DNA of 64,000 bases from Elusimicrobia bacterium GWF2_62_30 (GTDB taxonomy: Bacteria > Elusimicrobiota > Elusimicrobia > Elusimicrobiales > UBA9959): contig MGUK01000084.1 of NCBI GenBank assembly GCA_001799995.1, positions 62,001 to 126,000 of the forward strand, read 5' to 3'. Shown here one piece after another: positions 26,211 through 44,814 of the stretch (the stretch's first letter is position 1; the number at the start of each line of letters is the position of its first letter). Below the pieces are notes generated by a model, which worked only from the letters and a program-made list of their open reading frames with translations, was not told the origin of the DNA and made no database searches. The position numbers and the translations under genes were made by a program.

Positions 26211-26240
26211 TTGACATCGGTTAGGCGCCTTGCATATAAT
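26211..26240 (+). promoter_or_regulatory. Consensus sigma70 promoter of the first FecR/PorV cassette
   Basis: TTGACA (26211-26216), an 18-base spacer and TATAAT (26235-26240). It is the best promoter in the window. The transcript would have a leader of about 75 bases before the FecR gene. Confidence 0.88.
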
Positions 26241-26323: not shown

Positions 26324-27763
26324 ATGAAACATTTTCTGGTTTCTGTCCTTATGCTTTGCCTTTGCGGCATTTCCGACGCCGCCTACGTGGATCAATGGCG
26401 CGGGGAGGTCAGCATAAAAAAGAACGGGGACACGGAATGGGCCGCGCTCAAGGGAAGCGGCAAGGTTAAACTGGTTTCCGGCGACGAACTGCGCACCTCC
26501 AGGGCCTCCACCGCCGAGATCTTCATGGACGACGGCACCAGGGTGAAGCTGGCCCCCGTTTCCGCTTTTAAAGTGGCGTCGGAGACCGGGGACGAAGTGT
26601 CGCTGGGGCTTTACTTCGGGCGCGTGCGCTCCTGGGTCAAGAAGTTCTCCAAAAAATTCGAAGTGCGCACCCCCTCGGCCGTCTGCGCCGTGCGCGGCAC
26701 GGATTTCATGGTGCAGGCCGACGCCGACGGCGGCACGCGCGTGGAGGTTTACGAAGGCAGCGTGCTGACCGGGGACGCCAAGGGCAATACCGGCCTGCTG
26801 CGCCAGGGCCAGTTCGTGGAAATACCGCGGGGAGGCACGTTCAAAGAGCCCTCTGAGAACCCCAACGACCCCAGCAACATGGATTCCACGCTGGGCAACG
26901 CCCGGCTGGAGGCGCGCAGGGAGATCTACAACGAGATCTCCAAGGCCGACGTGCTGGCGCGCGCGCAGGAGGAGATCCAGTCCGCGGAGTTCCAGAACCG
27001 TAAGGTGGCCATCGACGCCTTCGGCTACCGGGTGCGCATGGAGGAATACACCATACGGCCCGCCGCCAACCAGTTCAAATACGTGGTGCTCAATACCCGC
27101 GATGACAGCTTCAACTTCGGCAAGATCCTCTTCACTTTCAACAACACCCTGCCTTCCGACCTGTCCCTGGCCACCAGGAACATGCTGTCCGCCACCGGCG
27201 CCGCCAGGCCCGCCTGGGAACTGACGGAGATAAACAGCATCATGTCCAACACCCTGGACAAGGTGACCGAAGACTCCTACGGCGGGAAGATGATAGCCGA
27301 CAATCCGTCCGCCCCCACCCTCTGGACCCATTTCTTCGCTAACAGGGATTTTTACGTGCAGGGCGGGGACCAGGCGGTGGAGAACGGGGGCATGGGCAAG
27401 ATGTTGTGGTCCTATAGCGATGCCAATTCCGATAATGTGGAGCAGGCCGGGGAATACGCTTATCTGGGCGGTTCCTTTACCGTGATAGACTCACAGCCCG
27501 ACGGAACGGACGTTTTTCACAGCGTGAAACGCAACACTTTTGCGGACGGTACCTGGATACAGGCCGAGGACTTCGTCTTGTTCGACGACGGGAAGATACT
27601 GGCCGCCGGGGATTTCGCCGGCAGCCTTACCTCCGACATGGATACGGTCACGGACAAGCTGAATTTTCAGCGCGTTTATACCAGTTCCCTTTTCAGCGGA
27701 AGAAAGATAGACCTGGAATATTCGGCCAAGCTGCTTAAAGACGCCGGCCTGCTGCGGTTCTGA
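26324..27763 (+). CDS. Secreted FecR-domain protein (cassette 1)
   Basis: A 479-residue protein with signal peptide (about 1-20, LMLCLCGISDAA). A FecR domain (about 25-165) has GDELRTSRASTAEIFMDDG, VRTPSAVCAVRGTDF and VEVYEGSV. The C-terminal ~300 residues match nothing I recognise. Classic FecR proteins are inner-membrane sigma regulators; no sigma factor gene and no transmembrane helix after the signal peptide are present. A periplasmic or surface scaffold role is therefore more likely. It is the first gene of a cassette ending in a PorV-like barrel. AGGAG precedes the ATG. Confidence 0.85.
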   Translation: MKHFLVSVLMLCLCGISDAAYVDQWRGEVSIKKNGDTEWAALKGSGKVKLVSGDELRTSRASTAEIFMDDGTRVKLAPVSAFKVASETGDEVSLGLYFGRVRSWVKKFSKKFEVRTPSAVCAVRGTDFMVQADADGGTRVEVYEGSVLTGDAKGNTGLLRQGQFVEIPRGGTFKEPSENPNDPSNMDSTLGNARLEARREIYNEISKADVLARAQEEIQSAEFQNRKVAIDAFGYRVRMEEYTIRPAANQFKYVVLNTRDDSFNFGKILFTFNNTLPSDLSLATRNMLSATGAARPAWELTEINSIMSNTLDKVTEDSYGGKMIADNPSAPTLWTHFFANRDFYVQGGDQAVENGGMGKMLWSYSDANSDNVEQAGEYAYLGGSFTVIDSQPDGTDVFHSVKRNTFADGTWIQAEDFVLFDDGKILAAGDFAGSLTSDMDTVTDKLNFQRVYTSSLFSGRKIDLEYSAKLLKDAGLLRF

Positions 27764-27788: not shown

Positions 27789-29018
27789 ATGCATAAAAAC
27801 AAACTCCTGATAAAGCCGGTACTTTCAGTATTCTCTTTCCTTTGCCTGCTCTCGCCGCTCAGCGCCGAGATAAAAATGACCCCGGTAGCTAACGCCTCGC
27901 TCCTGGGCGGAAAATACTACCTCGATTCCGAAGCCGCTTCCTTCAACGGGCGCCTGGACCTTTTCCTCTCCCCGGTGCTCAAGCTGGGCGAGAACAATAC
28001 CCTTATCCCGATCTATTCCTGGAACTATTCCGGCACGCAGGACATACAGGAGCTGGCCGGCGGCGGCGTGCTCACCCGCCAGCGCCAGGCGCATACCCTT
28101 TCCCTGAAACACGTCTATACGCGCGAGTTCAACAAATACAAGCCGCGGTTCTCCTACTCCAAGGCGCTGGTGCAGGAGACCAAGGACGAGGACTGGGGGG
28201 ACGGGCTTTTCGACTATACCACGATGTCTTTCGGCGTGGAGGCGGAGCAGGAAAAGCCGCACGGCACTTTTACCGAGTCCTACGACTATTCCCTGGTGTC
28301 CTACCCGAATTACAGCACGCTGCTTTCGCAGTCGCAAACCGTCATAGACACGGCCACTTTTAACGAGCTTGCCGCCAATGCCGGCAAGGATACCATGGAC
28401 AATGCCGGCCACCGGCTGGCGCTGGGCTATACCTGGTTCCCCGAGCCGCTGACGATGCAGGCCGGTTACGACCTGACCTACCGCACGTACGGCGACCAGC
28501 CTGTTATTAACGAGCCGGCCACCGGCCAGCCTTCTTTCAGCTCGGACAAGCGCACGGACCTGGTGCAGAACCTTAGCCTGACCGCCACCAGGGCGCTGAA
28601 GCCGCTGGTGCTCAACGCGGTGCTGCGCGGGGCCTGGCTCAGCTCCAACCAGAATTCCTACGATTCCTCCCGCACCAAGTACATCGAAGATTATTACAGC
28701 TACACCGAGGTGGGCTTCGCCCCGTCGATGAGCCTGGCCCTGAAGAACGGCACGCAGTTCGGCCTGGCGCTGGACTGGCGCCGCCTGGCCTATACCGGCC
28801 GCCTGCGGCAGGATGAGTCCGGCAATTACAGCAGGTCCAAAATAAACCAGACCGTCTGGCTGAGCTCCCTTTCCGCCAGGTACCCGGTCTATAAGAAACT
28901 TTTCGCCAGGGCGGTCTACAACTACCAGGTCTCGTCGTCAAACATGCGCTACGAGGCCAGCTACCGGTACAACTACAGGGCCAGCACCTACCTGGTGGGC
29001 GTGGAGTGGGAGTTTTAA
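27789..29018 (+). CDS. Outer-membrane beta-barrel protein, unknown function (cassette 1)
   Basis: A 409-residue protein with an N-terminal signal peptide (FSFLCLLSPLSAE). Alternating hydrophobic/polar strands run throughout (LKLGENNTLIPIYSWNY, FGLALDWRRLAYTG), with many Tyr residues and the terminal VEWEF typical of barrels folded by BamA. It resembles surface-lipoprotein or autotransporter-type barrels only in general style; I recognise no specific family. It sits between the FecR gene and the giant secreted protein. The 25-base upstream gap is AT-only apart from its first bases and has no clear ribosome site. Confidence 0.75.
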   Translation: MHKNKLLIKPVLSVFSFLCLLSPLSAEIKMTPVANASLLGGKYYLDSEAASFNGRLDLFLSPVLKLGENNTLIPIYSWNYSGTQDIQELAGGGVLTRQRQAHTLSLKHVYTREFNKYKPRFSYSKALVQETKDEDWGDGLFDYTTMSFGVEAEQEKPHGTFTESYDYSLVSYPNYSTLLSQSQTVIDTATFNELAANAGKDTMDNAGHRLALGYTWFPEPLTMQAGYDLTYRTYGDQPVINEPATGQPSFSSDKRTDLVQNLSLTATRALKPLVLNAVLRGAWLSSNQNSYDSSRTKYIEDYYSYTEVGFAPSMSLALKNGTQFGLALDWRRLAYTGRLRQDESGNYSRSKINQTVWLSSLSARYPVYKKLFARAVYNYQVSSSNMRYEASYRYNYRASTYLVGVEWEF

Positions 29019-29103
29019 GCGCTAATCCGGTTTCAGCGGGGGAAGGTTTTTCAGGTCGCGCAGTATAGATTTTCGTCTGCCGGTATTTCGGTTGGAGAAC
29101 ACT

Positions 29104-32100
29104 ATGAGCAAGATAAAAAACAGCCTCATCAAAATTTTCGTCGCGGGGGTACTGGCCGCCGGCCTTTCAGTCGCGGCCTACGCCCAGACTTATACCGGCA
29201 ACTTCACGCTGCCGGAAGGCTCTAATTTTGACGGCGGCGACAGGGACGCCGGCTGGGCAACAACCTACTACAACGGCAGCACTTACGTGGTCGGCTCCTC
29301 CTCTTCCGCCATCGGCCTCAGCGGCCTCCTGGTCAAGTATGACGGCAGCGGCGTCTGGGTTTCCTCTGCGGTACTGCCCGGCGTGGACTTCAAAGGCGTG
29401 GCGGTCAACGCCAACGGCATTTACGTGGTGGGCACGAGCGACACCGATATGGTGACCGCGAAATACGACCAGGCCCTTGTGCTGGTCTCTTCAAGAGTGG
29501 TGGGATTCCAGATTACCGTCGGGGCCGACATAGCCCTGTCGGCGGCCGGCAATGTCTTTGTGGTGGGTTCCGACCTGACCCAGCTGGATTCCAAGATAGT
29601 GATGTACGACGCCAACCTTGCTCTTCAATCCGAGAACGGCATAGACAGCGCCGGCGGCGTGGACACCGGTGTGGGCGTGGCCGTGGACGGCACCAATGTA
29701 TACATGGGCGGGTACAGCCTTAAATCGGGCGCCACTTATTTCGTGCTGGCAAAATTCGATGAGAGCAGTTATTTGAGTTCCTATTCCTCCACCTCCCTTT
29801 CCGGGGTTTACCTCGATGCCACGATCCGGGCGGGCGGGAAGCTGGCCGTGAACCCGGTTACGCACGAAGTTTACGCGGCGCTCAACCTTGCCGACGCCAT
29901 GATGGTGGTGAAGTACGACCAGTACCTGGTCAAACAGGGCACGCAGACCTTTTACAGCCCTTTCTATGCCCAGGCTTCCGACGTGGTACTGGACAGTACC
30001 GGCAACGTCTACCTGGCCGGCGCCTTTAATTCCGGCGCCGACGATTATGCTGTAATGCTGAAATATAACCCCAACTTGTTATTCCTCTCCAGCGCGGCAA
30101 GCGTGCAGACCTACGGCTACGAGGCCACCTCCGTGGCGCTCGATACCGCGACCGGCTACGGCTATGTGACCGGCGTGTATTTTTCCGACGGCAGCGGCAA
30201 CGAGCCGGGCTGGGATATGAGAACCGTTCGCCTCGGCCCGCTGGGAGATGGCGGCGGGGCGCAGCAGCCCGAGGCCACTTTCTCGGGCAACTTCGGCGAC
30301 ACCGAACTGGGCGCTGTTTTCGGCCTGACTTCGGGCCTTGAGGCGGACAACCTGGCGGTGGACAATTATACCGCCGGCGGGCCGTTCGTCTACATCGTCG
30401 GCTACGCCTCCAACCTGGTCAGCGGCAAGAAAGACGGCTATATAATAAAATACAGCAGCGACGGCGTTAAGCTGTCCTCGGCCGCTATTACGCAGCCCGG
30501 CTACGACTTTACCGCGGAGGCCGTTAAGGTTTCCTCAGAAGGCTTCGTCTACGTCGCCGGCGGCGCGGCGGCTGCCGATTCCGTCTATTCCCTTGTGGTG
30601 AAATACACGCCCTCGCTGGTGGTGGTCACTTCCGTTACCCATGGCGGGTATGACCTTACCATGGCGCTCGGTCCTACCGGAGAAGTGGTGGTGGGCGGCT
30701 TTAAATACATCTCCTTTTACGGCCACGATGCCTGGTATATCACTAAATACGACAGCGCCTTGAATTACGTTACCAACAGCAATGCGCTCTCGTTCGCTTC
30801 CTTCGATTCCACGGAAACCGTGCAGGGTCTGGCCCTGGACAGCGCGGGCAATATCTACGCCGTCGGCAATAAGTACGACAATTCTTTCGGTAATTATGGT
30901 ATCCAGGTCATCAAGGCCAACCCCGGCATGACCACCTATTCAACTATCATGCCCGGCGATGGCCTGGGCATAGGCGTTGACATACTCGGGAACAAGAACC
31001 TGGGGCACGCTTCCGTGCTTGTGGACGCCGCCGATAATCTCTATGTCATCCATCCCTCCACCAACGCGGCCACGGGGCTGGCCACGGCGATCAGGAAATA
31101 CGACACGGTCCCGGACCTCATCGGGTACCAGACTTTCGACTCCGCTTATCACGACGAGCCGCTTACCTCCGGTTTCGACCGCTACGGCAACCTGCTGGTG
31201 AGCGGCTGGAGCTTCAACGACCAGCGCGTTTACCAGGGCGGGTTCCTGCTGCTGTACAACCCGGAACTGGTCCTTATCACTTCCGGCCCCATGATGGCGG
31301 CGGGCCTGGACGCGGACATGAACCGCGATTACGTATACACTCTCGCAGGCGGCGGCCCCGAGGTCCACACTTTCCGGTTCAACCTGCCGTCTGCCGGCAA
31401 CATCTTCAGCGGCGGCGTTTACGAGGCGGGCGGCGCGCTGGTTTCCAACCTTTTCGCTACCGGCGTCGCCTACTATGGGTCCGAGGTTTATTCCGTAGGC
31501 GTGAACGGAACCGACAGCCTGCTGGTGCGCTATAACATGGTCGGAAACCTGGTCTCTTCCGCCGTTTTCACCGGCGCCGAATTCCGCGCGGTGAAAGCCA
31601 ATGCCAACGGCGTTTACCTCGCCGGCGGCGGCATGGTGGCCAAGTACGACCACAGCTCCGGCCTGGTGCTCAGCTCCGCCGCGGTGCTGCCCGGCGACCC
31701 GACCGCGAACGACCTGGTGCTGGACGAGGCCGGGAACGTTTACGTAGCGGCTTCCGAGACCGGCGCCGGCGGTTCCGACTTTAAGCTCGTTAAATTCGAC
31801 AGCGACCTGACCTATCTCACTTCCGTGACCCAGGATTTCGGCGGCTTCGAACGCGGCTTTGGAGTGGACGTGGATACGGTCGCCGGCCGCGTGTATATCG
31901 CCGGCACCAGCCTTCAGGGCCCGTCTACCTTCTATATGTCGGGCGGCTATAACACCGGCGACCTGGGCTCGCCTGTCTTCTCGGCGCCGTATGGCGGCGT
32001 TTATTCTGATCCCGAAATGAATCTCGGCGCCAAGCTGGCGGTCAACCCGGTCACGCACGACGTGTTCCTGGTGGGTTCGCTCGGCACGGAAAATGACAGG

Positions 32101-35100
32101 AAGATCCTGACCCTGAAGTATAACCAGAACCTTACCTTGTCCTCTGCCGCGGCGTTCCCGGGAGGCATGTACCAGCTCGGGATGGACGTGAAGGTCAGCA
32201 GCGAAGGCTACGTTTACGTGCTGGGTAAGGACGATACCGGCGGGTATGACTCGACCGCGCTCCTCAAGTACGATGAGAACCTGGTCTTCCTTTCCAGTTC
32301 TGCCCAATACGTGCCCGGCGTGAAATTCGTCGGTCTTTCCCTGGCCCTGCATCCCGATCTCGGCGACGCTTACGCCGCGGGCGTCCTCGATGCGGGTTCC
32401 GGCACGAACATGTTCACGGCCCGCTTTGAGGCTTTGCCCGGAGTAAAATACGTGCCCCCGCTGGCCTTTACCGGGCTTTTTGCCGAAGCTACCGGCGTCA
32501 CCGTCAACGGCGGCGGCATGGATATGGGCACGGGCGCCGCGGTTTACGGGTCTTACGTCTACGCCGTCGGCCATTCCGCCCCGGCGGGCAGCGTTATAGT
32601 CAAGTACGACCAGACCGGCAATGTGGCTTCTTCTGCCACTTACAGCGGCGCCGGGTTCATGAACGTAGTGGCCAACGGCGACGGTGTGTATGTCGCCGCC
32701 CAGGGCGATGGCACCGGCTTTGTTACCTTGAAATATACCCATAGCCTTGTCCTAAGTTCGGCCGCCGTGCTGCCCGGAGATTCCAGCGCCAGGGATATCG
32801 CCCTGGACGCCTCGGGCAACGTTTACGTGATAGGTTCCAACATGGGCGAGGGCGGGAACGACGACTACAAGATAGTCAAGTACGACCAGTACCTGGCGCA
32901 GCAGGGCGCCCCCGGGCTCTTCGACGCGGGCGGCTACGACGAAGGCCGCGGCATAGCCGTGGATAACGGCTTCATCTATGTGACGGGCGACAGCCTCATG
33001 GCCGGCGCCACTTATTTTGTGACGGCAAAGCTTAACTCTTCGTACGCGGTGGTCGCTTCCACGGTCTACGCCGGGGCTTATGTGTCCGCCGAGTTCCCGA
33101 TGGGCGAGAAACTGGCGATAAACCCGGTCACTCACAACGTGTACCTGGCCGCGAACGCCTCCCCGGCCACGATGCTGATCCTGAAATACGACCAGGACCT
33201 CGTGCCCCAGGCGGAAGAAACGGTCTTCAGCACCTCCTCCTATGCGCATGCCGCGGGGATAAAACTGGACGCCAGCGGGGACATCCACGTCGCAGGCTCC
33301 TATAGCAACAGTCTCCGGGACATCCCGCTGCTGCTTAAGTACGACCCGCAGCTCGTGCTCCTTTCCAGCGCTGCCAAGGCGCAGCCCTATAATTTTGAGG
33401 TCGTCGGGCTGGCGCTCGACACGACCACCGGCAGCGGCTATCTGCCCGGCGTTTACTTCTCCGACGGGAACGGCGGCAACCAGTCCATGTGGGACATGCG
33501 CACCGTCAAGATGGACCCGCTGCCCGGCACCGGCGTGTACGGCGTGATCACCGGCACGGTATCTTACGACGGAATGCAGACCGGCGAATCCCTTGTCGCT
33601 ATCTTCACCAGTACCGACATAATCAATTCTAACCCGTATACTTTCGCCACCATCAATACCGCGGCTAACCCCTGGGACTATACCACTCCCAACCTGCCCG
33701 CCGGCACCTATTACCTGCTCGGCATAATCCTTACCCAGGGCATGGAGGCGGGACCGCAGAAATACGACCCCTGGGACGTCCTTGGCTCCACCGATAATAT
33801 GACCGCGGTGGTCATCAGCGAGGCCGGCGTCCAGCCCGGCATTAACTTAGCGCTTGTCGACGGTACCGACGAGAATCCCAATCCCGTCTTTACCGGCGGC
33901 TACATAAAAGGGGCCGTCTCCTATTCCGGCGCCGTCCAGGGCGTCGCCCGCGTGGCGCTTTCCTCCGCTCCGCTGGCCCTTGGTTCGAGCGAGAACATCA
34001 TTACGAATATGCTCGTGGGAGCGAACAGTTATGAGTTCGGCGGCCTTACCATGCCCGGTACATACTACATCACGGCCTGGCTGGACGAGAACGAGAACTC
34101 CCAGCTGGACTGCGGCGAGTCCAACGGCGCTTACAGGCCCACCCGCGGCGTGGACTGCGCGTTCGAGTCCCGGCCCATCTTCCTGGCCGAGAATACCGCG
34201 CTTGCCGGGGCGGACATTACCGTCACGGATTTCGTTTCGGTGACCGGTTCCATCTTCAAGGACATGACGATGCCCGACGGCAACGGCGTGTTCATGGCCA
34301 CCCAGTCCGCCGCCGGTTATGTGCCTTTCTATATGGGCGCGTACATAGCGGGAACTTCAGATATCCCTTACGAATTCCGGCTCTCCACCAGCGCCGCGCC
34401 GTACGATATTACGCTTTACATAGACGAGAACGAAGATCTGAACCGCGGTTTCTTCGAGGCCTATGGCTCGACAGCCGGCGTTCTGGTCGCCTACGGCAGC
34501 CCGGTGACGGGCGCGGACATAATCCTGTCTACGCCGATCATCCCCGTCCCATCCCTCGACTGGGCGGGCGGCATGAGCTACAACGAGACCGGCGTTCCCG
34601 ACGGGTATTCCGGCCTGTTCGTGTACAGGGTGAAATACACCAGCCCCAACAACCTGGCCCCTGCGAACGGCTATCCCAAGGTGAACATCGCCTATGATGG
34701 CGTTCCCCTGAGCAGTTCGCCGTTCACGATGACGGCGCTCGCCCCTGAGGATACGGACTACTCCGACGGCAAGATGTTCACCTATACCTGGGCGCTCTCC
34801 GCGGGCTCCGGGAGCGCCGGGTATTCCTACCAGTTCGCGGCGTACGACTCCGACAACATCCCCGCCGTGGGTCCCGCCGCCGAGGCGACGGACGGACCGC
34901 TGGTTTCTGAACCACCGGCGATAACCTACGCCACGACAACGCATGTGCTGTCTGGCATCACGGCGCAGGTGATCACCAACGGCATGTCCGGCGCCCAGCG
35001 CCTGGCCAGGGACACGGCCGGCAACATCTATTCGGCGCAGGAAGATTCCGGGATCCTGGTGCTCACCAGGCGCACAGGCTCCGGAGTTACGCAGACCACG

Positions 35101-38100
35101 TTCGTGGAATTCGGCGGCGCCACGCTTAAGGATCTGGCGGTGGACCCGTTCGGCAACAGCTATATCCTGGCCGGGACGGGAGAATCGCCGCTTGTGGCAA
35201 AATTTGGGACTTCCGGTGAGGAGTTATGGATAAGCACCTTTGGTTACGGTGCGGACCCGGTTTCACTGGGCGTTTCCACCTCCGGCGTGGTTTACGCCGC
35301 GGCCAATGATACTACGGACAGGAGCATACTGCTCTACAAACTGAAGCCCGACGGCTCCGAGGTGTGGGAAACCCCCGTGCGCTACCAGTACGCGCAAGGC
35401 GCCTCCACCGATACCGTGGCCCATATCTCGGTGGTGCCCCAGTCCAATGTGGTCGCCATTTACGTGGCCGGCGCCGTGAGTACGGGGCCTATGGTCACCA
35501 GCGGCCTGCTGGCTAAGTTCATAGATAACGGCGGCGCCGTTACCTTGCCGGCGTGGGTTAAACTTTATTCCAGCGCCAGCCGGGACGAGTACAGCGAATA
35601 CAGATATGCCGTGGCTAAAGCCGTAGCGGCCGATAAGAACGGCAACGTTTACGTGGCCGGGACCGATAACCGGTACGACGCCGGCCAGGGCACCGACGTC
35701 TGGCTGCTGAAATATAATTCCGGCGGGTTCCAGCAATGGGCTTCGGCCAAGACTTTCAATTCCGACGCCTACGCCGACGACGACGTCGCGGCCCTGGCGC
35801 TGGACTCCATCGGCGACCTGTATGTTTCCGGCGGCGTTGTCGCCTGGAGCAGCGGCGGGTTTAACCTCTGGGTCGCTAAATACAGCTCCGGCGGCGTCAG
35901 GCTGCTCAGCCGGACGTACGACTATAACGGCAACTCTGATTACGGTTACGATGTTATCGCCGGTTCGGCCGCGGTTTACACTGCCGCTGAGTTCGACGGT
36001 GCTTCCGGCCTTTACGAACTGCCGCTTTCCATAGGCGCGCAGTCGGAGTATTTCACGGCGGCGGAGGGCCCCAATACGGGCTCCGTCTCGCTTGCGTGGA
36101 ATTACCCCGTTCCCCTGCCGGAGGGCTCAACGTTCTACGTGCAGTACAGCTCGGCCGCGGTGCCGAACTGGGCGACCGTGCCGCTGGTTACGGTAAGCAC
36201 CGGCGTCGCGCAGTGGGAAAGCCAGGAGTACCTGGTCGGCGGCCTCATGACCGGCCGCGACGCCAGCCAGAACATCTTCCCGCAGTACAAGTTCCGGGTA
36301 AGCCTGCGGTCCTCCGCCGGCATTTACACCGTGCTGGTCTCTACCCCCTCGAGCTACGCCAGGACTCCGTTCGCGTACGACAGCACCCTGCCGTACGGTA
36401 CGGCTAAGTTCTCGTATATGCACGGGACCACGGCCGGCGAGAATACCGGCAACGCCATAGCCGTTAGCGGCAGCTATGTCTACCAGGCTTTCGGCAACGA
36501 TTCCGGGGATTCCGTCGGACTGGGCTTCCGGAAACATAACACCAACACCTCCGCCGTAGAGTGGACCAAGTTCTTCAATACGGCTGCCGGGGCCTACTTC
36601 AGCGTGAACGCGCTCCTGCGCGACAGCGCGGGCAGTTTCTACGCCGTGGGCAGCCGCGCGTCCATAGAGGACCCGGCCAATACGGACTTCTGGATAGGCA
36701 AATTCAACGCTGACGGCGACCTGATAGGGAGCTATTCCCAGGACGTGGACGGCGGCAGCGACGAGCTGTTCGGCGCGGTGCTGGACGGCGCCGGCGGCCT
36801 CTACACCGCGGGCAAGTTCACCGATGTGACAGGAGAGAACGGGGGGGAGATCTCCGTGCGCAAGTATAATGTGGCAGCCTCGTCTCCCTACCTTCTCTGG
36901 GCTTCTACCCAGTCTGGTTCCGGCGCGGGGCAATTTGTAAGTATGCCCGCCAGGACGGGCAAGTCTCCCGCCAAGTTCGGCCAATCCGGGTCGGGCGATG
37001 ACGCGGCCTACGGTATAGCGCTCGACGTCAACAACTCGCGCCTCTACGTGACCGGCGCCATAACGGTGGAAGCCGGGAACACCGACCTCTGGGCGGCCAG
37101 GTACACGCTGGACAACCACATGGTCTCCTCTTTCACTTATAATACCGGTTCCGGCAATGCCGCGGGCTACGGCGTGGCCGTGGCTCCCTCCGGTGTGTTC
37201 GTTGCCGGTTCCAGGTCCAATGGCTCCGGCACCCCCGTGATGTACGTCGCGCAGTATTCGCTCGATTTCTCCACCACGGTGTGGGACATGGCCGAGGGCC
37301 CTGACTCCGAGTCCGCGCTGCATAGCGTGGTGGTGGACGCGAACGGCTACGGCTACGGGGCCGGGTTCGAGTCCTCCTGGGAACAGGAAGGGCTGAACGC
37401 CATCTTCGGCAAGCTGGCCCCTAACGGCAATATTGTCTGGAACCGCTACTTCAACGACGATGCCCGCAACGTGGACGAGGCCGCCTACAGCATTGTGCTG
37501 GATACGGCCAACAGGGTTTTCTCTTCCATCCGCACGGGCTCGTACGGTTCCTTCAGCCCCGGTTTCTACATGTTCCCGCAGCCTTCGTTCAATATGACCG
37601 CCGCGGAATATCACGTTCCGGGAGCGGTGAGCCTTACCTGGCTGTCCCAGGCTACCCTGCCTGCCGGCACCACCTTCTACGTGCAGTACGCTACCAACAA
37701 CGTCACCGTAGTCTGGTCGGCCGCGGCTGCCCAGGAGAGTTTCATAACGGACAAACCCTTGTGGGAAAGCGGACAGATGGAGTACAAGGTTTACGGGCTG
37801 GATAACGGCAAGAACGCGCTGGGCGCGGCCATCGGCCCGGACTATTACTTCAGGGTCTGGTATTCCACCGGCGCGGGTTCTTACACCGCCGTGCCCGGGA
37901 TCCCGGCCGCCAAGGCGGCCAACGCCTATATGCCGGAAAGCACCCTGGTTTATTCCGGCGACAACAGGTTATATACCGCCGGAGTGCGGTATATGATGGA
38001 CAACGGGTTGACGCTGAACGGCGCGGTGCGCGGGCCTTTGGGCAATATCTATTCCGTGGTCAACGCCATGCAGGGCGAGTCAAGCCTGTTCGCGCTGCGC

Positions 38101-41100
38101 AAGCTGAGCCCGGGCGGCCTTCCGCTCTGGACGAAGTATTTCACCACTTCGGAATATGACCGCATAAAAGCCAACAGGATGGCGGTGGACGCCGCCGGGA
38201 ACCTTTATGTTACCGGCAGGCGGGCCCGCTGGGACGAGACGACGCAGACGGACGAAAGCCGCATGTTCCTGATCCGCTATAACGCCGACGGCGTTATGGC
38301 CTGGAAATACTCCGGGCCGCTTTATACCGAAGGCTACAGCGTGGCCGCGGACGCCTCTGGCCATGTTTACGTGGCCGGCAGCTCCGGCACGTACATGACG
38401 GGGGGCAATGACGCCTGGATGGCGAAGTTCAGCGTGACGAGTTCCAGCGCGACCCTGTTGTGGGAAAACCTGAATGACGGCGCCGCGAACGAGTACGACA
38501 GCGCTTATGGCGTGGCCGTGGCAGGCAGTATGGCGTATTTCGCGGGTTATTCTACCGAGCAGACCGGCGATGGCGGCGTCTGGCTCGGCAAGTACGACGG
38601 CTCGGGAGTTCTGGTTTCCAGCCGCAGCATTAGCAACGCGCCCGGCGAAGAGGCCGCTTACGGCGTTGCCGTATCCCCTGTTACCGGCAGTATTTATGTG
38701 GCAGGCCAGGCGATAAATAACGACTACGGCACGTACGACGGCGTGGTCTACATCTCCAGCGCGGACCTGAGCGACTTCGGCGTGACGGTTTCCACCTATC
38801 ACAGCGCCAGCACCCAGTGGGGCAGAGCGGCGGCCTACGGCCTTACGCTTGACGCCGCCGGCGCCGTTTACGTGACCGGCACGGATGACCGCAGCGACAT
38901 CGGCTGGGGCAGGGACCTGTGGCTGCGCAAGTATACCTCGCAGCTCGGGGCGGACTCCGAACTCTGGACGCAGACGTTCAATTCCAACGGGCAGGACGAC
39001 GCGGGCTACAGCGTGGCGCTGGACAGCTCAGGCTACGTCTACGCCGCGGGCGCGTTCGGCATGGGCGACGGTGTGTACCGCTACAAGCAGGCCAGCAACC
39101 TGGCGTACAATCCTACCCTTACGGCCAGGATAATGCGCGGGGCCCCGGGCACTACGGACACCACGCCCTTCGCCGGCGTTAGCGTGGCCTTCATCCCGTA
39201 TTCGCAGACCGGCGGTATAGACGCCTACGGCGTCAGGATGGGTTCTACGAACGCTTCCGGCTATTTCACCCGGGAAATGGCTCCCGGCCGGCAGTACTTC
39301 ATCGCCGTTGCCACGCAGGGTTATACCCCGACGGTCAAGGACCAGCAGATCGACCCGAACGGGACGTACTTCGTCCAGTTCGCGGGAGACTACGAAAAAA
39401 CCTTCACGCTGTACCCTGCCGCCGATCCCGGCAACGCCCTCAGCGTAACGGTGACCTCGGCCACGGCCGGGGACCTTGTGACCGCCGAAGTGTTCTTCAC
39501 CGAGACCGGCGAAAAGATGGCCTATGCCATGGCGCAGGTGCCGGCTTCGACTACTACCGTCACGTTCACCGTGCCGAGCGTAGCCACGGCCGCGGCCAAC
39601 GTGTACACGCTGGGCGTCACTATCCCCTCCAGGAGCGTGCAGCGCAGCAGGAAGCTGGATTCGGCCTTCCCTTCTTCGAGGAACGCTTACGATGTGTGTA
39701 TGTCCACCACGGACGGGGCCATCATCTCCTCGGCCGGCTTCGATGTGACGGCTTCGACCGTCCCGGCTTCTTTCAGCGGCGTGGTGCGCAACAGCGCCAC
39801 CAATGCCCCCGTGGAGAACGTCAGGGTCTCGCTCTACCACCAGGACTGCGTGCCCGAAGTAAAGAACAACGCCTACGACGAATACCAGATGCTGACAGAC
39901 GTGAACGGCAAGTTCTCGTTCTACGGCGTGACGCCCAGCACCGTCCCCTACCTGGCTACCCTCAGGAAGGCGGGCTATGGGGCCACCGGCATGGGCTGGT
40001 GCCAGTATTTCGTCTCTTCCTCCGTAGTGAACGGAGGCGTGACGGTCTCGCAGGGCGGGGGGTTCAATTACCAGGACTTCTCCCTTGCCGAAGCCACGTT
40101 CACGTTCAAAGGTATAGTCACGTATGACAACGTGCCGATACCCAACGCCAACGTAATGGTGCATGGCGACTATACCTGGTACACCGGCGGTTCCGACTCC
40201 TACCGCCAAGGCCAGGGCATGGGCACCGACGCCAAGATCCGCACCGGCGCCGACGGTTCCTTCACGTTCAGCTCCGCCACGGCCAACGGCCTGCTGGAAG
40301 GCGGCTTGCGGCTGAATGTGGATTTCCTCGGCAGCTGGAGGCAGTTCAACGAGGGGCGGACCAACTCGAACACGGTCGACTCCGACGATATCCGGATAGT
40401 GATCTCCGGCCAGCGTTCTACCACCACCGTCAGCGGCTGCGCCAACGGCAAGGTGTGGATGCTGAGCGCCACGGACGGCTCCTGCCGCGCCGCGGTGTAT
40501 CCCGGCACGCCGCTCGTCCTCAATATAGAGCCGCCCGCCGGGGAAAGCCGGATCGGCCGCATCTACGGCGACCTGGTCTTCGTGACCACTTACACGGTGA
40601 CCGAGCAGTCGCCGCTGTTGATCTCTACCGCCGCGCCGGTTACCGTAATGGCCATGGCAAACTGCGAGGGCAGCTGTTCCAATACCCAGATGGGCTTTGT
40701 GACCCTGTCCGGAGCTTATACCGTCAATACGGCCACTTACAGCATCTCGCTGGCTACCGGCACGAACTACGACGTCAAGCTGGTTTCCACGGAATGGGGC
40801 CTGACCAGTTCCTTCGATATGGACGTGGACCTGCAGTCCACCGACACGGCGAGGGTCAACTTCACGGTAGGCCGGGCGGGCAAGCTGACGGGCAACATCC
40901 TGCTGCCCAGCGGCGCCAGCTACAGGCCGAACCTGGTATCGGAAGACGATCCTGCGTTCCATTCGATGTATATCACCATCAAGGGCCAGCAGATGGACGT
41001 CTTCGAAAAGACCATGCCCGACGAGAACGGCGAGTTCGAGTTCCCTAATATCGCCCCCGGCTCCTACGACCTGGCCCTGGTCCCGCGCGGCGACGGCTTC

Positions 41101-43803
41101 TCCTGGCCGCCGCTGACCATGGAAGGGATAACCGTGGCCTCCGGCCGGACCACGCAGGTAAAGCCGCAGTTGGGCGAAGGCCTGGTGGTGCAGCCGCAGA
41201 TAGTGGGCCTGCCCGAGCAGTCCACCCCGACCTGGCGCTACCTGATGATCCCGGTGGAATCCGGGACGGAGATGAACCAGAAGAAGGTGAGCGAACTGTT
41301 CTTCGCCGAGGACAGTTTCGCGTTCGGGTATGCTACGGCCACCGCTACCTGGGATAAAAAATACATGCAGCCCGGCCAGTATGACTTCTACCTGGTGCTC
41401 CGGGCGCAGTACAACCCGGGGAGCGAGGGGTCCTTCTCCCAGTTCGGCAACTTTATAGGCAAGATAAAGGGCGTTACCATACAGCGGTCCGAGGCCAACC
41501 CCGGTCTGGGCTCCTACGCCCAGCCGATAAGCGTCAGCATCCTGGGCGCCATCGGCCAGGGCGTGTTCAACGGCACGCTTACCGGCGCCAAGGTGTTCAC
41601 CGAAAACGACTGCCAGCGCTTCTTCGGCAACTTCAACGAGATGTTCTCGGTGATCCCGGCGGTGATGGTGTACGACGGGGCCGGCGACCTGAAAGGGTAT
41701 ACGGCCGCCATGCCCACGGAAGCGGACCTGCCCGGGTTCCTGTCGGTCATGCAGGCCCAGGACCTGGAAGGCTGCAAGAACTACTTCGTCGCGCATCCCG
41801 CCGCGTTCGTCATGCCCGGGCTGCCGCCCGGCAACTACACGGCGGTGTTCAACAACCCGAACTACCCGCCCGTGGCGAAAGAGCTGTCCCTGCCGTACGA
41901 GAACTACGCGTTCGACTTTGACGCGCAGAACCTCCTGTCGGGGTCCATCTCCGGCACGATAAAGAGCTCCTCCACGCTGGAGGCGGTGGCGAACGCCACC
42001 GTGTTCCTGAAGCACCGTACGGTGGAGAAGTACGTCAACAGCGCCTCGGACGGCAGCTTCCGGTTCGAGAACCTGCCCGCCGGCATCTACCGGCTGGAAG
42101 TGCTGCACAGCGGCTTCGTGAAGGCGGGCGCGAAAACCTCGCTTTCCGCCTCCGATGCCGCCAGCCTCAGCTTCTACCTGATCCCGTCGGAAGCCATCAT
42201 GAGCGGTAAGGTTTACATGAGCAAGTTCCCGTCCCCGGTCACCAAGGCGGGCGTGAAGATAGTGGCTTACGACGAGACCCTGAACGTGGAGGCCCCTTCG
42301 GCGTACCTGCCCAAGATAGAAGCCAACACCAACTCGAGCGGCGAGTACGAACTGCCCGGCATAATTCCCGGCCACCTCTACAAGGTGTCCGCGTTCTATC
42401 CCGGCAAGCTCACCACCACGCTGGACGTTACGGCCGTGGACGGCTACACGTATATCGACGACATCGTGCTCTCCGATATAAGACCGCAGATAACCGTCAA
42501 GGCGAAGAAGTCGCCCGACTCGGCGAGCAAGGTGGACGTGACCATCAAGTCGCCCAAGAAGCTGGTAACGGCCCCGGTGTGCAAGTTCAACCCGTCGGGA
42601 GCCGCGGCGGAATACCTGCCCGCCACGGCGGTGACCCTGGCGCTGGTGCCCGGCCCGAACAACACGTATAACGGCCAGTTCACCGTCTCGCGCAGCCAGC
42701 GGTATTATACCGTCTACGTGCTGGCCGGCGACACGGACAAGACCGAGAAAACCGTGCTGTACGACCAGAACAACGAGGCCAGGACCGACCAGTACATCCA
42801 GGACGAGTCCATAAGGGGCGGCGAAGTGCAGATGGACGTGGAGAGCGAGGAGTATTCCGGCATAGAGCTGGATCCCGGCTCCATCTCCTACTCCACCAAC
42901 CCGGCGGGGACTTCGGCGTACTCCGTCTCGGCGGCCGGGGGAGACCTCGTTGGAGGCTTCTTCAGCTCGCTGCCCAGCGTGCGCACCGTGAAGACGGCGA
43001 AGGGTAATCTGACCATCGAGGCCGCGGTACAGGACCTCATGGCGTCGGAGGTCTATGACATGGACCTCGACAACGCCAGCGTCAACAAGCCCATCACCCT
43101 CACGCTGAAGTACGACAAGGAGAAGGGCGCCGGGGCCAACCTGAAGATCTACAGGAGGAACCCCGAGACCGGCGAGTGGGAGGAAGTCCCCGGCAACTAT
43201 ACCGTGGACCCCATGCTCGGCGTGGTGTCCGTGGACGTGGAGTGTCTGGACCACGCCCAGGACTGTCAGGGGGCTTCGAATACGCCGCTGGGGCGCAAAC
43301 GCTACGGCATGAGCGCCGTGGTCAACGGCCGGTATGTCATGCCGGCTTCCGGGACCGGCACCCAGAGCGGCCAGTTCGCCGTGTTCACCGCCAAGCCCGC
43401 CACCGGGATAGCCTACACCGGAGGGTTCGATGTCTATAATCTGCCGAACCCGTTCAGCCTGAAGAACAAGACCGTTACCAACATACAGGGTACCGGGGCC
43501 TTTACGGGGCTGAGCGGTTATAACTCCGGCGCGCAGTCCTATACCGTGAAAGGAACGCTGCTGAAGTACCACCTGCCCCCGGGCAAGTCGGGCAACCTCA
43601 AGTTCGTCATCTATAACCTGGCGGGCGAGAAGGTGCGGACCATCGACGACAGCCACAGGGACGGCGGCTGGATCTACTACTCCGAGTGGGACGGCAAGAA
43701 CGACAACGGCGCGGACTGCGCGTCGGGCGTCTACTTCATGCTGACCTACCTCGACGGCAAGCAGCTCGGCACCAAGGCGCACAAGATGGCGCTGATAAAA
43801 TAA
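29104..43803 (+). CDS. Giant secreted multi-beta-propeller protein with FlgD-Ig-like C-terminal domain (cassette 1 cargo)
   Basis: 4,899 residues. A TTG at 29092 would add four residues, but the ATG at 29104 is preferred because GGAG lies at good spacing. A signal peptide (IFVAGVLAAGLSVAAYA) is followed by four consecutive seven-bladed propellers (29188-33530) built of GNVYVAG...KYD repeats (SBBP-like). Three prealbumin-like domains (33541-34540) and an Ig-like domain (34541-34920) come next. Three more propellers (34921-39110) are separated by two FN3-like domains. About eight carboxypeptidase-regulatory-like domains fill 39111-42480, then a linker domain. The end (43401-43800) is a FlgD-Ig-like domain with VYNLPNPF, WDGKNDNG and ASGVYF. 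There are no catalytic motifs. Adhesion, surface coating or glycan binding is plausible. A PorV-like gene follows. Confidence 0.85.
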   Translation: MSKIKNSLIKIFVAGVLAAGLSVAAYAQTYTGNFTLPEGSNFDGGDRDAGWATTYYNGSTYVVGSSSSAIGLSGLLVKYDGSGVWVSSAVLPGVDFKGVAVNANGIYVVGTSDTDMVTAKYDQALVLVSSRVVGFQITVGADIALSAAGNVFVVGSDLTQLDSKIVMYDANLALQSENGIDSAGGVDTGVGVAVDGTNVYMGGYSLKSGATYFVLAKFDESSYLSSYSSTSLSGVYLDATIRAGGKLAVNPVTHEVYAALNLADAMMVVKYDQYLVKQGTQTFYSPFYAQASDVVLDSTGNVYLAGAFNSGADDYAVMLKYNPNLLFLSSAASVQTYGYEATSVALDTATGYGYVTGVYFSDGSGNEPGWDMRTVRLGPLGDGGGAQQPEATFSGNFGDTELGAVFGLTSGLEADNLAVDNYTAGGPFVYIVGYASNLVSGKKDGYIIKYSSDGVKLSSAAITQPGYDFTAEAVKVSSEGFVYVAGGAAAADSVYSLVVKYTPSLVVVTSVTHGGYDLTMALGPTGEVVVGGFKYISFYGHDAWYITKYDSALNYVTNSNALSFASFDSTETVQGLALDSAGNIYAVGNKYDNSFGNYGIQVIKANPGMTTYSTIMPGDGLGIGVDILGNKNLGHASVLVDAADNLYVIHPSTNAATGLATAIRKYDTVPDLIGYQTFDSAYHDEPLTSGFDRYGNLLVSGWSFNDQRVYQGGFLLLYNPELVLITSGPMMAAGLDADMNRDYVYTLAGGGPEVHTFRFNLPSAGNIFSGGVYEAGGALVSNLFATGVAYYGSEVYSVGVNGTDSLLVRYNMVGNLVSSAVFTGAEFRAVKANANGVYLAGGGMVAKYDHSSGLVLSSAAVLPGDPTANDLVLDEAGNVYVAASETGAGGSDFKLVKFDSDLTYLTSVTQDFGGFERGFGVDVDTVAGRVYIAGTSLQGPSTFYMSGGYNTGDLGSPVFSAPYGGVYSDPEMNLGAKLAVNPVTHDVFLVGSLGTENDRKILTLKYNQNLTLSSAAAFPGGMYQLGMDVKVSSEGYVYVLGKDDTGGYDSTALLKYDENLVFLSSSAQYVPGVKFVGLSLALHPDLGDAYAAGVLDAGSGTNMFTARFEALPGVKYVPPLAFTGLFAEATGVTVNGGGMDMGTGAAVYGSYVYAVGHSAPAGSVIVKYDQTGNVASSATYSGAGFMNVVANGDGVYVAAQGDGTGFVTLKYTHSLVLSSAAVLPGDSSARDIALDASGNVYVIGSNMGEGGNDDYKIVKYDQYLAQQGAPGLFDAGGYDEGRGIAVDNGFIYVTGDSLMAGATYFVTAKLNSSYAVVASTVYAGAYVSAEFPMGEKLAINPVTHNVYLAANASPATMLILKYDQDLVPQAEETVFSTSSYAHAAGIKLDASGDIHVAGSYSNSLRDIPLLLKYDPQLVLLSSAAKAQPYNFEVVGLALDTTTGSGYLPGVYFSDGNGGNQSMWDMRTVKMDPLPGTGVYGVITGTVSYDGMQTGESLVAIFTSTDIINSNPYTFATINTAANPWDYTTPNLPAGTYYLLGIILTQGMEAGPQKYDPWDVLGSTDNMTAVVISEAGVQPGINLALVDGTDENPNPVFTGGYIKGAVSYSGAVQGVARVALSSAPLALGSSENIITNMLVGANSYEFGGLTMPGTYYITAWLDENENSQLDCGESNGAYRPTRGVDCAFESRPIFLAENTALAGADITVTDFVSVTGSIFKDMTMPDGNGVFMATQSAAGYVPFYMGAYIAGTSDIPYEFRLSTSAAPYDITLYIDENEDLNRGFFEAYGSTAGVLVAYGSPVTGADIILSTPIIPVPSLDWAGGMSYNETGVPDGYSGLFVYRVKYTSPNNLAPANGYPKVNIAYDGVPLSSSPFTMTALAPEDTDYSDGKMFTYTWALSAGSGSAGYSYQFAAYDSDNIPAVGPAAEATDGPLVSEPPAITYATTTHVLSGITAQVITNGMSGAQRLARDTAGNIYSAQEDSGILVLTRRTGSGVTQTTFVEFGGATLKDLAVDPFGNSYILAGTGESPLVAKFGTSGEELWISTFGYGADPVSLGVSTSGVVYAAANDTTDRSILLYKLKPDGSEVWETPVRYQYAQGASTDTVAHISVVPQSNVVAIYVAGAVSTGPMVTSGLLAKFIDNGGAVTLPAWVKLYSSASRDEYSEYRYAVAKAVAADKNGNVYVAGTDNRYDAGQGTDVWLLKYNSGGFQQWASAKTFNSDAYADDDVAALALDSIGDLYVSGGVVAWSSGGFNLWVAKYSSGGVRLLSRTYDYNGNSDYGYDVIAGSAAVYTAAEFDGASGLYELPLSIGAQSEYFTAAEGPNTGSVSLAWNYPVPLPEGSTFYVQYSSAAVPNWATVPLVTVSTGVAQWESQEYLVGGLMTGRDASQNIFPQYKFRVSLRSSAGIYTVLVSTPSSYARTPFAYDSTLPYGTAKFSYMHGTTAGENTGNAIAVSGSYVYQAFGNDSGDSVGLGFRKHNTNTSAVEWTKFFNTAAGAYFSVNALLRDSAGSFYAVGSRASIEDPANTDFWIGKFNADGDLIGSYSQDVDGGSDELFGAVLDGAGGLYTAGKFTDVTGENGGEISVRKYNVAASSPYLLWASTQSGSGAGQFVSMPARTGKSPAKFGQSGSGDDAAYGIALDVNNSRLYVTGAITVEAGNTDLWAARYTLDNHMVSSFTYNTGSGNAAGYGVAVAPSGVFVAGSRSNGSGTPVMYVAQYSLDFSTTVWDMAEGPDSESALHSVVVDANGYGYGAGFESSWEQEGLNAIFGKLAPNGNIVWNRYFNDDARNVDEAAYSIVLDTANRVFSSIRTGSYGSFSPGFYMFPQPSFNMTAAEYHVPGAVSLTWLSQATLPAGTTFYVQYATNNVTVVWSAAAAQESFITDKPLWESGQMEYKVYGLDNGKNALGAAIGPDYYFRVWYSTGAGSYTAVPGIPAAKAANAYMPESTLVYSGDNRLYTAGVRYMMDNGLTLNGAVRGPLGNIYSVVNAMQGESSLFALRKLSPGGLPLWTKYFTTSEYDRIKANRMAVDAAGNLYVTGRRARWDETTQTDESRMFLIRYNADGVMAWKYSGPLYTEGYSVAADASGHVYVAGSSGTYMTGGNDAWMAKFSVTSSSATLLWENLNDGAANEYDSAYGVAVAGSMAYFAGYSTEQTGDGGVWLGKYDGSGVLVSSRSISNAPGEEAAYGVAVSPVTGSIYVAGQAINNDYGTYDGVVYISSADLSDFGVTVSTYHSASTQWGRAAAYGLTLDAAGAVYVTGTDDRSDIGWGRDLWLRKYTSQLGADSELWTQTFNSNGQDDAGYSVALDSSGYVYAAGAFGMGDGVYRYKQASNLAYNPTLTARIMRGAPGTTDTTPFAGVSVAFIPYSQTGGIDAYGVRMGSTNASGYFTREMAPGRQYFIAVATQGYTPTVKDQQIDPNGTYFVQFAGDYEKTFTLYPAADPGNALSVTVTSATAGDLVTAEVFFTETGEKMAYAMAQVPASTTTVTFTVPSVATAAANVYTLGVTIPSRSVQRSRKLDSAFPSSRNAYDVCMSTTDGAIISSAGFDVTASTVPASFSGVVRNSATNAPVENVRVSLYHQDCVPEVKNNAYDEYQMLTDVNGKFSFYGVTPSTVPYLATLRKAGYGATGMGWCQYFVSSSVVNGGVTVSQGGGFNYQDFSLAEATFTFKGIVTYDNVPIPNANVMVHGDYTWYTGGSDSYRQGQGMGTDAKIRTGADGSFTFSSATANGLLEGGLRLNVDFLGSWRQFNEGRTNSNTVDSDDIRIVISGQRSTTTVSGCANGKVWMLSATDGSCRAAVYPGTPLVLNIEPPAGESRIGRIYGDLVFVTTYTVTEQSPLLISTAAPVTVMAMANCEGSCSNTQMGFVTLSGAYTVNTATYSISLATGTNYDVKLVSTEWGLTSSFDMDVDLQSTDTARVNFTVGRAGKLTGNILLPSGASYRPNLVSEDDPAFHSMYITIKGQQMDVFEKTMPDENGEFEFPNIAPGSYDLALVPRGDGFSWPPLTMEGITVASGRTTQVKPQLGEGLVVQPQIVGLPEQSTPTWRYLMIPVESGTEMNQKKVSELFFAEDSFAFGYATATATWDKKYMQPGQYDFYLVLRAQYNPGSEGSFSQFGNFIGKIKGVTIQRSEANPGLGSYAQPISVSILGAIGQGVFNGTLTGAKVFTENDCQRFFGNFNEMFSVIPAVMVYDGAGDLKGYTAAMPTEADLPGFLSVMQAQDLEGCKNYFVAHPAAFVMPGLPPGNYTAVFNNPNYPPVAKELSLPYENYAFDFDAQNLLSGSISGTIKSSSTLEAVANATVFLKHRTVEKYVNSASDGSFRFENLPAGIYRLEVLHSGFVKAGAKTSLSASDAASLSFYLIPSEAIMSGKVYMSKFPSPVTKAGVKIVAYDETLNVEAPSAYLPKIEANTNSSGEYELPGIIPGHLYKVSAFYPGKLTTTLDVTAVDGYTYIDDIVLSDIRPQITVKAKKSPDSASKVDVTIKSPKKLVTAPVCKFNPSGAAAEYLPATAVTLALVPGPNNTYNGQFTVSRSQRYYTVYVLAGDTDKTEKTVLYDQNNEARTDQYIQDESIRGGEVQMDVESEEYSGIELDPGSISYSTNPAGTSAYSVSAAGGDLVGGFFSSLPSVRTVKTAKGNLTIEAAVQDLMASEVYDMDLDNASVNKPITLTLKYDKEKGAGANLKIYRRNPETGEWEEVPGNYTVDPMLGVVSVDVECLDHAQDCQGASNTPLGRKRYGMSAVVNGRYVMPASGTGTQSGQFAVFTAKPATGIAYTGGFDVYNLPNPFSLKNKTVTNIQGTGAFTGLSGYNSGAQSYTVKGTLLKYHLPPGKSGNLKFVIYNLAGEKVRTIDDSHRDGGWIYYSEWDGKNDNGADCASGVYFMLTYLDGKQLGTKAHKMALIK
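29188..33530 (+). repeat. Four tandem seven-blade propeller modules in the giant protein
   Basis: Approximate modules are 29188-30285, 30286-31390, 31391-32460 and 32461-33530. Each has seven V/I-Y-V-x-G strands followed by a KYD/KYN strand. Modules 1, 3 and 4 share AVNPVTH or AINPVTH before blade 5. Modules 1 and 4 both end with VYFSDG and WDMRTV, indicating internal duplication. Confidence 0.8.
34921..39110 (+). repeat. Second propeller group with two FN3-like separators
   Basis: Three further propeller modules (about 34921-36040, 36381-37590, 37931-39110). They are separated by paired FN3-like domains at about 36055-36352 and 37595-37905, which share SVSLAW / AVSLTW, TFYVQY and YKFRV / YYFRV strands. 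The blades contain many Trp residues in KYxxGG...W positions, unlike the first group. Confidence 0.7.
43401..43803 (+). other. FlgD-Ig-like C-terminal domain of the giant protein (predicted sorting signal)
   Basis: It begins with VYNLPNPF, akin to the YPNPF entry of type IX sorting domains. It continues with VIYNLAGEKVRT, WDGKND, ASGVYF and a terminal KMALIK. The protease encoded at 55869 ends with the same elements (IYTQNGGLVRT, WDGRND, ASGVYL, KVVVIK). Confidence 0.7.
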
Positions 43804-43813
43804 AGCGGCGATA

Positions 43814-43838
43814 CGGCGGCCGGGAGTTCCGGCCGCCG
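43814..43838 (+). other. Stem-loop between the giant gene and its PorV-like gene
   Basis: A 10-base-pair GC stem (CGGCGGCCGG / CCGGCCGCCG) with a five-base loop and no following T-run. It could be an mRNA processing or attenuation point between the very long gene and the barrel gene. Confidence 0.5.
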
Positions 43839-43884: not shown

Positions 43885-44814
43885 ATGAAAAAGCTATTCA
43901 TCCTTTGCGTTGGTCTGCTCCTGCCGTCCGGTGCGTACGCCTCCGGCGCGGGCACTACGGCCGCTAACTTCCTGAAGGTGGCCATGAGCCCCCGCGCCAT
44001 GAGCATGGGGGGGGCATACAGCGCCATCTCCGACGATTCCGGCGCGGTGTTCGTCAACCCGGCCGGGCTCGCCCAAAGCGAAACGAAAGAGGTGGCCCTG
44101 GACTTCTCTACCTACCTGCAGGACGCCAAAATGGGGAATCTTTCCTATTCCGGCGTGACCGGCGGGAACCGCTTCGGCCTGGGCGCCACGTTCCTGACGG
44201 TGGGCGGGATAGAAAGGCGGGGCAACAGCGATGCGGTGGGCGTAGTGCCAGAGCTCGGCACCTTCGACGCCAACGACCTGGCCGTCACGTTCTCCTACGC
44301 GAAAAAGAATTTTACGCCGGAGCTGATGCCGCGTCTCGACGCGGGGATTTCCGTGAAGTTCATCCATTCCACCCTGTACAGCAAGTCCGCTTTCGCGGCG
44401 GCGGTAGACGCCGGAGCGCTGTACCGCGCCACGGATAAGATCAGCCTGGCGCTGGTGCTGCAGAACCTCGGCACGGAGATGAAATTCGACGAGGAATCCG
44501 ATCCGCTCCCGCTCTGCCTCCGCACCGGCATGCTTTACAAGGCTTCGGACGATCTCAATATCTCCGCTGAAGTGAGCGAATACCTGCAGGACGAAAAATT
44601 CTATCCCGCCGTCGGCGCGGAATACTGGTTCCGCAGGTCTTTCGCGCTGCGCGCCGGGTACAAGTACGGTTATGACACCGAAAACCTCGGGTCGGTGGTG
44701 GGGTTGAGCGTCGGGTTCGGCCTGAAAGCTTCCGGGATGGGCGTGGATTACGCCTTCCTGCCTTTCGGCGACCTGGGCAGCATACACCGCTTCGGCCTGT
44801 GGATGGGCTTTTAA
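43885..44814 (+). CDS. PorV/PorQ-family outer-membrane barrel (cassette 1)
   Basis: A 309-residue barrel with signal peptide (FILCVGLLLPSGAYA). The PorV/PorQ (UPF0164) opening is GAGTTAANFLKVAMSPRAMSMGGAYSA split by the usual turn, then DDSGAVFVNPAGLAQ. FadL-like strands and a terminal LWMGF follow. In Bacteroidota, PorV is the shuttle that takes C-terminal-domain cargo from the type IX translocon. Its position directly after the FlgD-Ig-tailed giant protein suggests a similar partnership here, which is inference. AGAGGT precedes the ATG, and a strong terminator follows. Confidence 0.88.
   Translation: MKKLFILCVGLLLPSGAYASGAGTTAANFLKVAMSPRAMSMGGAYSAISDDSGAVFVNPAGLAQSETKEVALDFSTYLQDAKMGNLSYSGVTGGNRFGLGATFLTVGGIERRGNSDAVGVVPELGTFDANDLAVTFSYAKKNFTPELMPRLDAGISVKFIHSTLYSKSAFAAAVDAGALYRATDKISLALVLQNLGTEMKFDEESDPLPLCLRTGMLYKASDDLNISAEVSEYLQDEKFYPAVGAEYWFRRSFALRAGYKYGYDTENLGSVVGLSVGFGLKASGMGVDYAFLPFGDLGSIHRFGLWMGF

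Follow-up and report, generated by a model that had tools for sequence, protein, structure and literature searches.

The Elusimicrobiota lie outside the FCB bacteria. SprB of Flavobacterium johnsoniae is a very large gliding adhesin. The type IX secretion system (T9SS) has been described in two papers as confined to Bacteroidota (PMC12618676, PMC10202324), and a 2024 paper considered it possible in other FCB phyla and its genes absent from the remaining phyla (PMC11285876). In Bacteroidota, all type-A C-terminal domains (CTDs), which fold as an Ig-like sandwich of seven antiparallel strands, are said to use a single PorV, and type-B CTDs use cognate PorP/SprF proteins that are often encoded just downstream (PMC12618676). 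Huge proteins, with no function assigned, have been reported as unusually numerous in the Elusimicrobiota, and the Omnitrophota are also rich in them (PMC11573180). In the open-access literature that we searched, we found neither a description of PorV-family genes lying next to genes for type-A-like CTD proteins nor a paper joining Elusimicrobiota with PorV and type IX secretion.

The 64-kb stretch of DNA analyzed here (hereafter the window) belongs to an Elusimicrobiota MAG of 2.91 Mb in 99 contigs, which is 84% complete. On its forward strand, a single intact open frame of 4,899 aa (29104..43803) takes up 23% of the window, in agreement with an earlier note on this DNA; it runs from an ATG at 29104, with GGAGAA just 5' of it, to a TAA stop, and is called as one gene by codon-bias scoring. 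The longest exact DNA repeat within the gene measures 19 bp, which makes a collapse of repeated domains by short reads unlikely, and assembly collapse was rejected for this reason; the gene cassette described below also recurs in more than 20 other MAGs. The encoded giant protein begins with a signal-peptide-like N-terminus of about 27 aa (29104..29184, forward strand; MSKIKNSLIKIFVAGVLAAGLSVAAYA/Q, ending AYA/Q), which supports the secretion proposed in the earlier note. From N- to C-terminus, the signal peptide is followed by four propellers of one kind (type A), a linker, three propellers of another kind (type B) with FN3-like domains, a beta-sandwich stem and a CTD.

Beyond what the earlier note had described, the giant gene is the third gene of a conserved four-gene cassette, all on the forward strand. 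The first gene (26324..27763) encodes a secreted FecR-domain protein of 479 aa (Pfam FecR, E 3.8e-18; 60–72% identical to the neighbour in relatives), and the second (27789..29018) a predicted outer-membrane barrel of 409 aa, as suggested by its signal peptide, amphipathic strands and C-terminal F; the latter is 63–72% identical to its counterpart in relatives and matched no family in Pfam or NCBIfam. The fourth gene (43885..44814) encodes an outer-membrane barrel of the PorV/PorQ family (309 aa, 57–76% identical in relatives), which scores 180.5 bits against the curated family cut-off of 90 (NF033709) and matches the solved PorV structure 6h3i_F by phmmer (E 1.9e-7); its Pfam PorV score lies below the cut-off, and Toluene_X/FadL was also matched weakly. 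The order FecR-domain gene, barrel gene, giant gene, PorV-family gene is the same wherever contigs show it, that is in 21 Elusimicrobiota cassettes including this one, whose neighbouring genes are 57–76% identical among relatives. In one relative (G042), a second, diverged cassette lies beside the first (L090:5325-14591) and holds the genes for a 1,658-aa giant-like protein, PorV, the barrel and FecR in another order.

A consensus promoter, TTGACA-N18-TATAAT, can be read directly ahead of the cassette (26211..26240, forward strand), 2.9 kb 5' of the giant gene and just before the FecR gene at 26324. In 12 of 15 genomes, the DNA 5' of the FecR gene holds a site that matches 11–12 of the 12 consensus positions; among 200 random 300-bp stretches, 199 reached 10 positions at most. 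A scan of 28900–44000 revealed no consensus promoter between 28900 and the giant gene. The promoter invoked in the earlier note thus exists and is recurrent, but it directly precedes the FecR gene and not the giant gene. Likewise, the importance that the note ascribed to a surface structure is supported by the conservation of the cassette and by its recurring promoter, whereas the surface location is one that we infer; the overall interpretation given there is supported in part. Between the giant and the PorV-like gene, a pattern scan found a hairpin of 11 pairs with a weak T tail (43814..43838, forward strand), which is possibly an attenuator lowering the expression of the PorV-like gene; the count of such hairpins in the region is not above chance.

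The four type-A propellers, units of ~355 aa each (residues 30-382, 393-764, 755-1113 and 1122-1475; 29191..33528, forward strand), were located using an HMM of units from orthologues, as BLAST of each giant against itself gave nothing useful, probably because the full-length self-match hides off-diagonal matches. Autocorrelation on the raw giant protein likewise showed no clear blade period, and phmmer of the giant against solved structures returned no match. The three type-B propellers with their FN3-like domains (residues about 1962-3340; 34987..39123, forward strand) were recognized by Pfam SBBP propeller repeats and by the NCBIfam SBBP-propeller lipoprotein profile (E 3.9e-34), both with their best matches in the 3' half of the giant, as well as by homology within the region. 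Between the two groups lies a poorly conserved, variable linker with prealbumin-like domains (residues 1476-1960; 33529..34983, forward strand).

Since alignments spanning two propellers misaligned the units, a second AlphaFold2 model was built for one type-A unit, the linker and one type-B propeller (residues 1118-2317), using an alignment of orthologues and paralogous units. In this model, 29 strands were observed in the fourth type-A unit (A4) and 27 in the first type-B unit (B1), corresponding to about 7 x 4, with pLDDT values mostly of 75–98, and the linker between both, for which the model is not reliable, was without resolved structure. Foldseek matched the propeller model to many propellers, among them the symmetric seven-bladed nvWrap-T (TMt 0.82), and also to multi-propeller receptors. 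Closed seven-bladed rings with four-stranded blades are hence predicted by the model for two of the seven propellers, and the other five are assigned by homology to the modelled kinds. The arrangement proposed in the earlier note, namely four propellers, prealbumin-like domains and then three propellers alternating with FN3-like domains, is borne out on this basis, and segment-wise structure prediction, which that note had put forward as a check on propeller closure in 29188-39110, returned confident propellers for both modelled units. The propeller units of the giant are ~25–58% identical to one another, and no recognizable catalytic domain was found in the protein, in keeping with the lack of a catalytic motif noted before.

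Downstream of the propellers, a conserved stem of beta-sandwich domains (CarboxypepD_reg, prealbumin-like) spans residues 3380-4811 (39241..43536, forward strand), as delineated by identity in relatives, the structure model and Pfam, in which CarboxypepD_reg matches the C-terminal part of the giant in four stretches. The stem was modelled as successive beta-sandwiches with a mean pLDDT of 69, and its fold matches included pilins, an S-layer protein and other extracellular Ig chains. The protein closes with a FlgD-Ig-like CTD (43537..43800, forward strand), as had been recognized from the sequence: Pfam FlgD_ig matches residues 4826-4877, and the last 88 residues form seven predicted strands in the model. 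This CTD is the best conserved segment, with a mean column identity of 70% versus 40–66% for the rest of residues 3701-4899. It resembles the type-A CTD of type IX secretion, although the giant matched neither TIGR04183 nor TIGR04131 in the NCBIfam scan and was recognized by FlgD_ig in Pfam. Elsewhere in the same genome (contig C88, L041:7365-8930), a 521-aa protein without a PorV neighbour carries a CTD 58% identical to that of the giant and might use the giant's shuttle.

Across the genus and family, most genomes with a match preserve the last 1,520 aa of the giant at about 51–61% identity, and the named stem relatives come from Elusimicrobia/Elusimicrobiota or 'bacterium' MAGs, besides two weak partial Pinibacter matches; in the gut family of this order, a search with the stem found nothing. 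Over this conserved base, the length of the protein varies from 1,543 aa in a relative without propellers (G050) through about 3,050 aa in many genomes to 5,444, 5,700 and 8,010 aa, so that the number of propellers is not fixed and ranges from none to many more than in the window. Propeller-bearing forms are colinear from residue about 1,966 onward, and full type-A units are restricted to the longer forms. A tree of 26 type-A units joined, with good support, units that come from different genomes and sit at different positions, such as G010 3460 and G021 29, or window 1122 and G010 813. This indicates that the head evolves as old units are exchanged, gained and lost, and not through recent tandem duplication. 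Recent tandem amplification was rejected on these grounds and on the lack of long DNA repeats in the gene, and the giant family thus combines a fixed base with a head that varies and recombines. In the 8,010-aa relative (G010; L073, L074), Big_5- and GEVED-like domains and other stretches lie between the type-A units, and one 69-bp exact repeat is present. In another relative (G049, L088), two frames, of 2,822 and 193 aa, take the place of the single giant frame, owing either to a real frameshift or to an assembly error.

The pairing of a CTD-bearing gene with a PorV-family gene extends over the whole genome. Of 32 PorV-family genes located, 27 have a visible upstream gene, and this gene encodes a CTD end in 19 of the 27 cases (leaving eight without a CTD neighbour) versus 6 of 327 other genes, the latter being the genes of the loci retrieved from the genome. 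Without the genes that had trained the CTD model, the pairing was 11 of 19 versus 3 of 324 (Fisher p 1.6e-13). Independently, a search of the genome with TIGR04183, the type-A sorting domain of NCBI, gave 16 matches, of which most exceed the cut-off and many lie just before a PorV-family gene. One such pair lies within the window, where a 568-aa protein, a papain-like peptidase as judged by eye, carries a FlgD-Ig/type-A CTD (55869..57575, forward strand; TIGR04183 and FlgD_ig over the cut-off), and a second PorV/PorQ-family gene (57572..58519, forward strand; NF033709 88.3 bits, just under the cut-off of 90) overlaps the stop of this cargo gene by 4 bases. PorV-family matches number 24–36 per genome in the genus and family, 4–5 in gut relatives and 3 in the Bacteroidota control. 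In one relative (G018), a PorV-family gene lies downstream of an open frame of 14,446 codons that carries a T9SS-like CTD (L158-L160, contig C35:225866-269203; longest exact repeat 22 bp in 52 kb), and a further open frame of 6,824 codons also carries a T9SS-like CTD (L161-L162, contig C15). The paired PorV genes provide a simple rule for locating surface proteins in uncultured Elusimicrobiota.

The genome also encodes a 1,786-aa SprA-like protein (L043:4724-10084), for which SprA is the sole strong family (TIGR04189, whole protein, E 5.5e-42, 143 bits against an equivalog cut-off of 200) and which aligned to SprA of Pinibacter (Bacteroidota) over 974 columns with 98.7% probability in an hhalign profile comparison. 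Pfam gave nothing useful for this protein, and phmmer against solved structures returned no match. As judged by profile similarity, it is a divergent homologue of the SprA/Sov translocon, and it was detected in 41 of 41 genomes of the order searched, the gut lineage having retained it as well. Its gene is oriented divergently, back-to-back, to two genes that resemble LptF/LptG on visual inspection (L043:4724-12383), and this linkage with lipopolysaccharide export may be meaningful.

At the genome level, a SprA/Sov-like translocon, PorV/PorQ-family shuttles and type-A CTD cargos are thus found together. GldM and the C25 (PorU-type) sortase were not detected in 26 genomes, nor in a repeat search of 7 Elusimicrobiota genomes, and GldN was not detected in 8 Elusimicrobiota genomes; all three were found in both Pinibacter controls. 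The energy source of the T9SS and its anchoring step, in which lipopolysaccharide takes the place of the cleaved CTD, are therefore missing or unrecognizable here and, as the motor part GldM, the ring part GldN and the C25 sortase went undetected, we do not file the system as a type IX secretion system. The export system of Elusimicrobiota may nevertheless work like the translocon-shuttle core of type IX secretion.

We propose, with a probability of roughly 60%, that the giant is a surface-displayed binding protein, adhesin or receptor-like, which reaches the outside through a reduced type-IX-like pathway that includes a PorV shuttle dedicated to it. According to this model, Sec would move the giant into the periplasm, where its C-terminal Ig-like domain would serve as a type-IX-like sorting signal, and the protein would then pass the outer membrane via the SprA/Sov-like channel. 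The PorV-family barrel encoded just downstream would take the CTD and hold or anchor the giant at the surface, so that the conserved stem would project the propeller head, whose propellers are predicted to bind ligands; the number and kind of these propellers are exchanged, gained and lost between related strains. The model builds on the observed reading frame, domain make-up, cassette conservation, head variation, CTD-PorV gene pairing and SprA-like protein, and infers from them the export route, the private PorV pairing, surface display and ligand binding. Against it speak the undetected GldM, GldN and C25 sortase, the sub-threshold SprA score, the lack of a TIGR04183 match for the giant's own CTD and the eight PorV-family genes that have no CTD neighbour.

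This model has to be weighed against export by other means. The giant could be exposed or released without any type-IX-like route, with PorV-family proteins acting as FadL/OmpP1-type porins or as assembly helpers that travel with large secreted proteins, and with the SprA-like protein serving elsewhere, for example in lipid or lipopolysaccharide handling. The undetected GldM, GldN and C25 sortase, the LptF/LptG-looking genes next to the SprA-like gene, the sub-threshold Pfam PorV score and the weak Toluene_X/FadL match are all compatible with such a scenario. We nonetheless consider it unlikely, as the cassette barrel matches the PorV family at twice the cut-off, PorV pairing is specific to genes with a type-IX-like CTD, and SprA is by far the best family for the SprA-like protein.

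A different role for the giant itself, as a structural sheath, S-layer-like or stalk component in which propellers are spacers, would agree with the pilins, S-layer protein and extracellular Ig chains among the fold matches of the stem and with a repetitive protein that lacks a catalytic domain and has a consensus promoter; a lattice, however, would be expected to have a fixed size, whereas the length of the giant varies more than five-fold and one relative has no propeller at all, and the divergence among propeller units is a better fit to binding surfaces than to spacers, all of which makes this role somewhat more doubtful still. It has also been proposed for giants of other candidate phyla that they seize other cells, and a part in such a cell-attack or cell-holding apparatus could be imagined here, given that Elusimicrobiota and Omnitrophota share the richness in huge proteins (PMC11573180) and that the window holds a neighbouring cargo resembling a peptidase. 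Hydrolase or lytic domains were, however, found neither in the giant nor in those additional head regions that were searched in its longest relatives, and we regard this possibility as very improbable.

Returning to the proposed surface-displayed binding protein, one huge-protein family of Elusimicrobiota thereby gains an anatomy, together with an operon that is conserved and an export route open to testing. More broadly, and more tentatively, groundwater Elusimicrobiota might run a relative of type IX secretion outside FCB that lacks the known motor, ring and sortase and gives many cargos a private PorV-family shuttle or anchor; this system would display giant modular proteins in which the base for export and stem is fixed and the propeller heads are exchanged between strains. 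The core of type IX secretion, made up of SprA, PorV and CTD, would then appear older or wider than the Bacteroidota/FCB and able to exist without the known motor and sortase and, if this is true, the minimal parts for protein passage across the outer membrane become testable by comparison.

Compared to the T9SS of Bacteroidota, the Elusimicrobiota share a SprA-like protein, PorV-family barrels, type-A-like Ig CTDs and a cargo gene beside a shuttle gene. They differ in that GldM, GldN and the C25 sortase were not found, and in that 24–36 PorV-family matches per genome contrast with 3, many cargos seemingly having a PorV of their own. A parallel in gene arrangement is SprB-SprF of F. johnsoniae, in which the adhesin likewise has a cognate outer-membrane shuttle gene just downstream (PMC12618676); SprB, however, combines a type-B CTD with a PorP/SprF-type shuttle, whereas the giant combines an Ig-like CTD with a PorV-family partner (the NCBIfam scan revealed no type-B CTD, TIGR04131, with a PorP/SprF partner), and no gliding motor part was detected. 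With SBBP beta-propeller proteins such as the Leptospira LipL53 family, the giant shares the profile matched by its type-B propellers, but its 118 bits stay far short of the equivalog cut-off of 400, and it has an ordinary signal peptide and carries many propellers per chain. With the huge Elusimicrobiota proteins reported previously (PMC11573180), it shares both phylum and size class, as illustrated by the 8,010 aa reached within its own family and by the 14,446-codon frame of another CTD gene.
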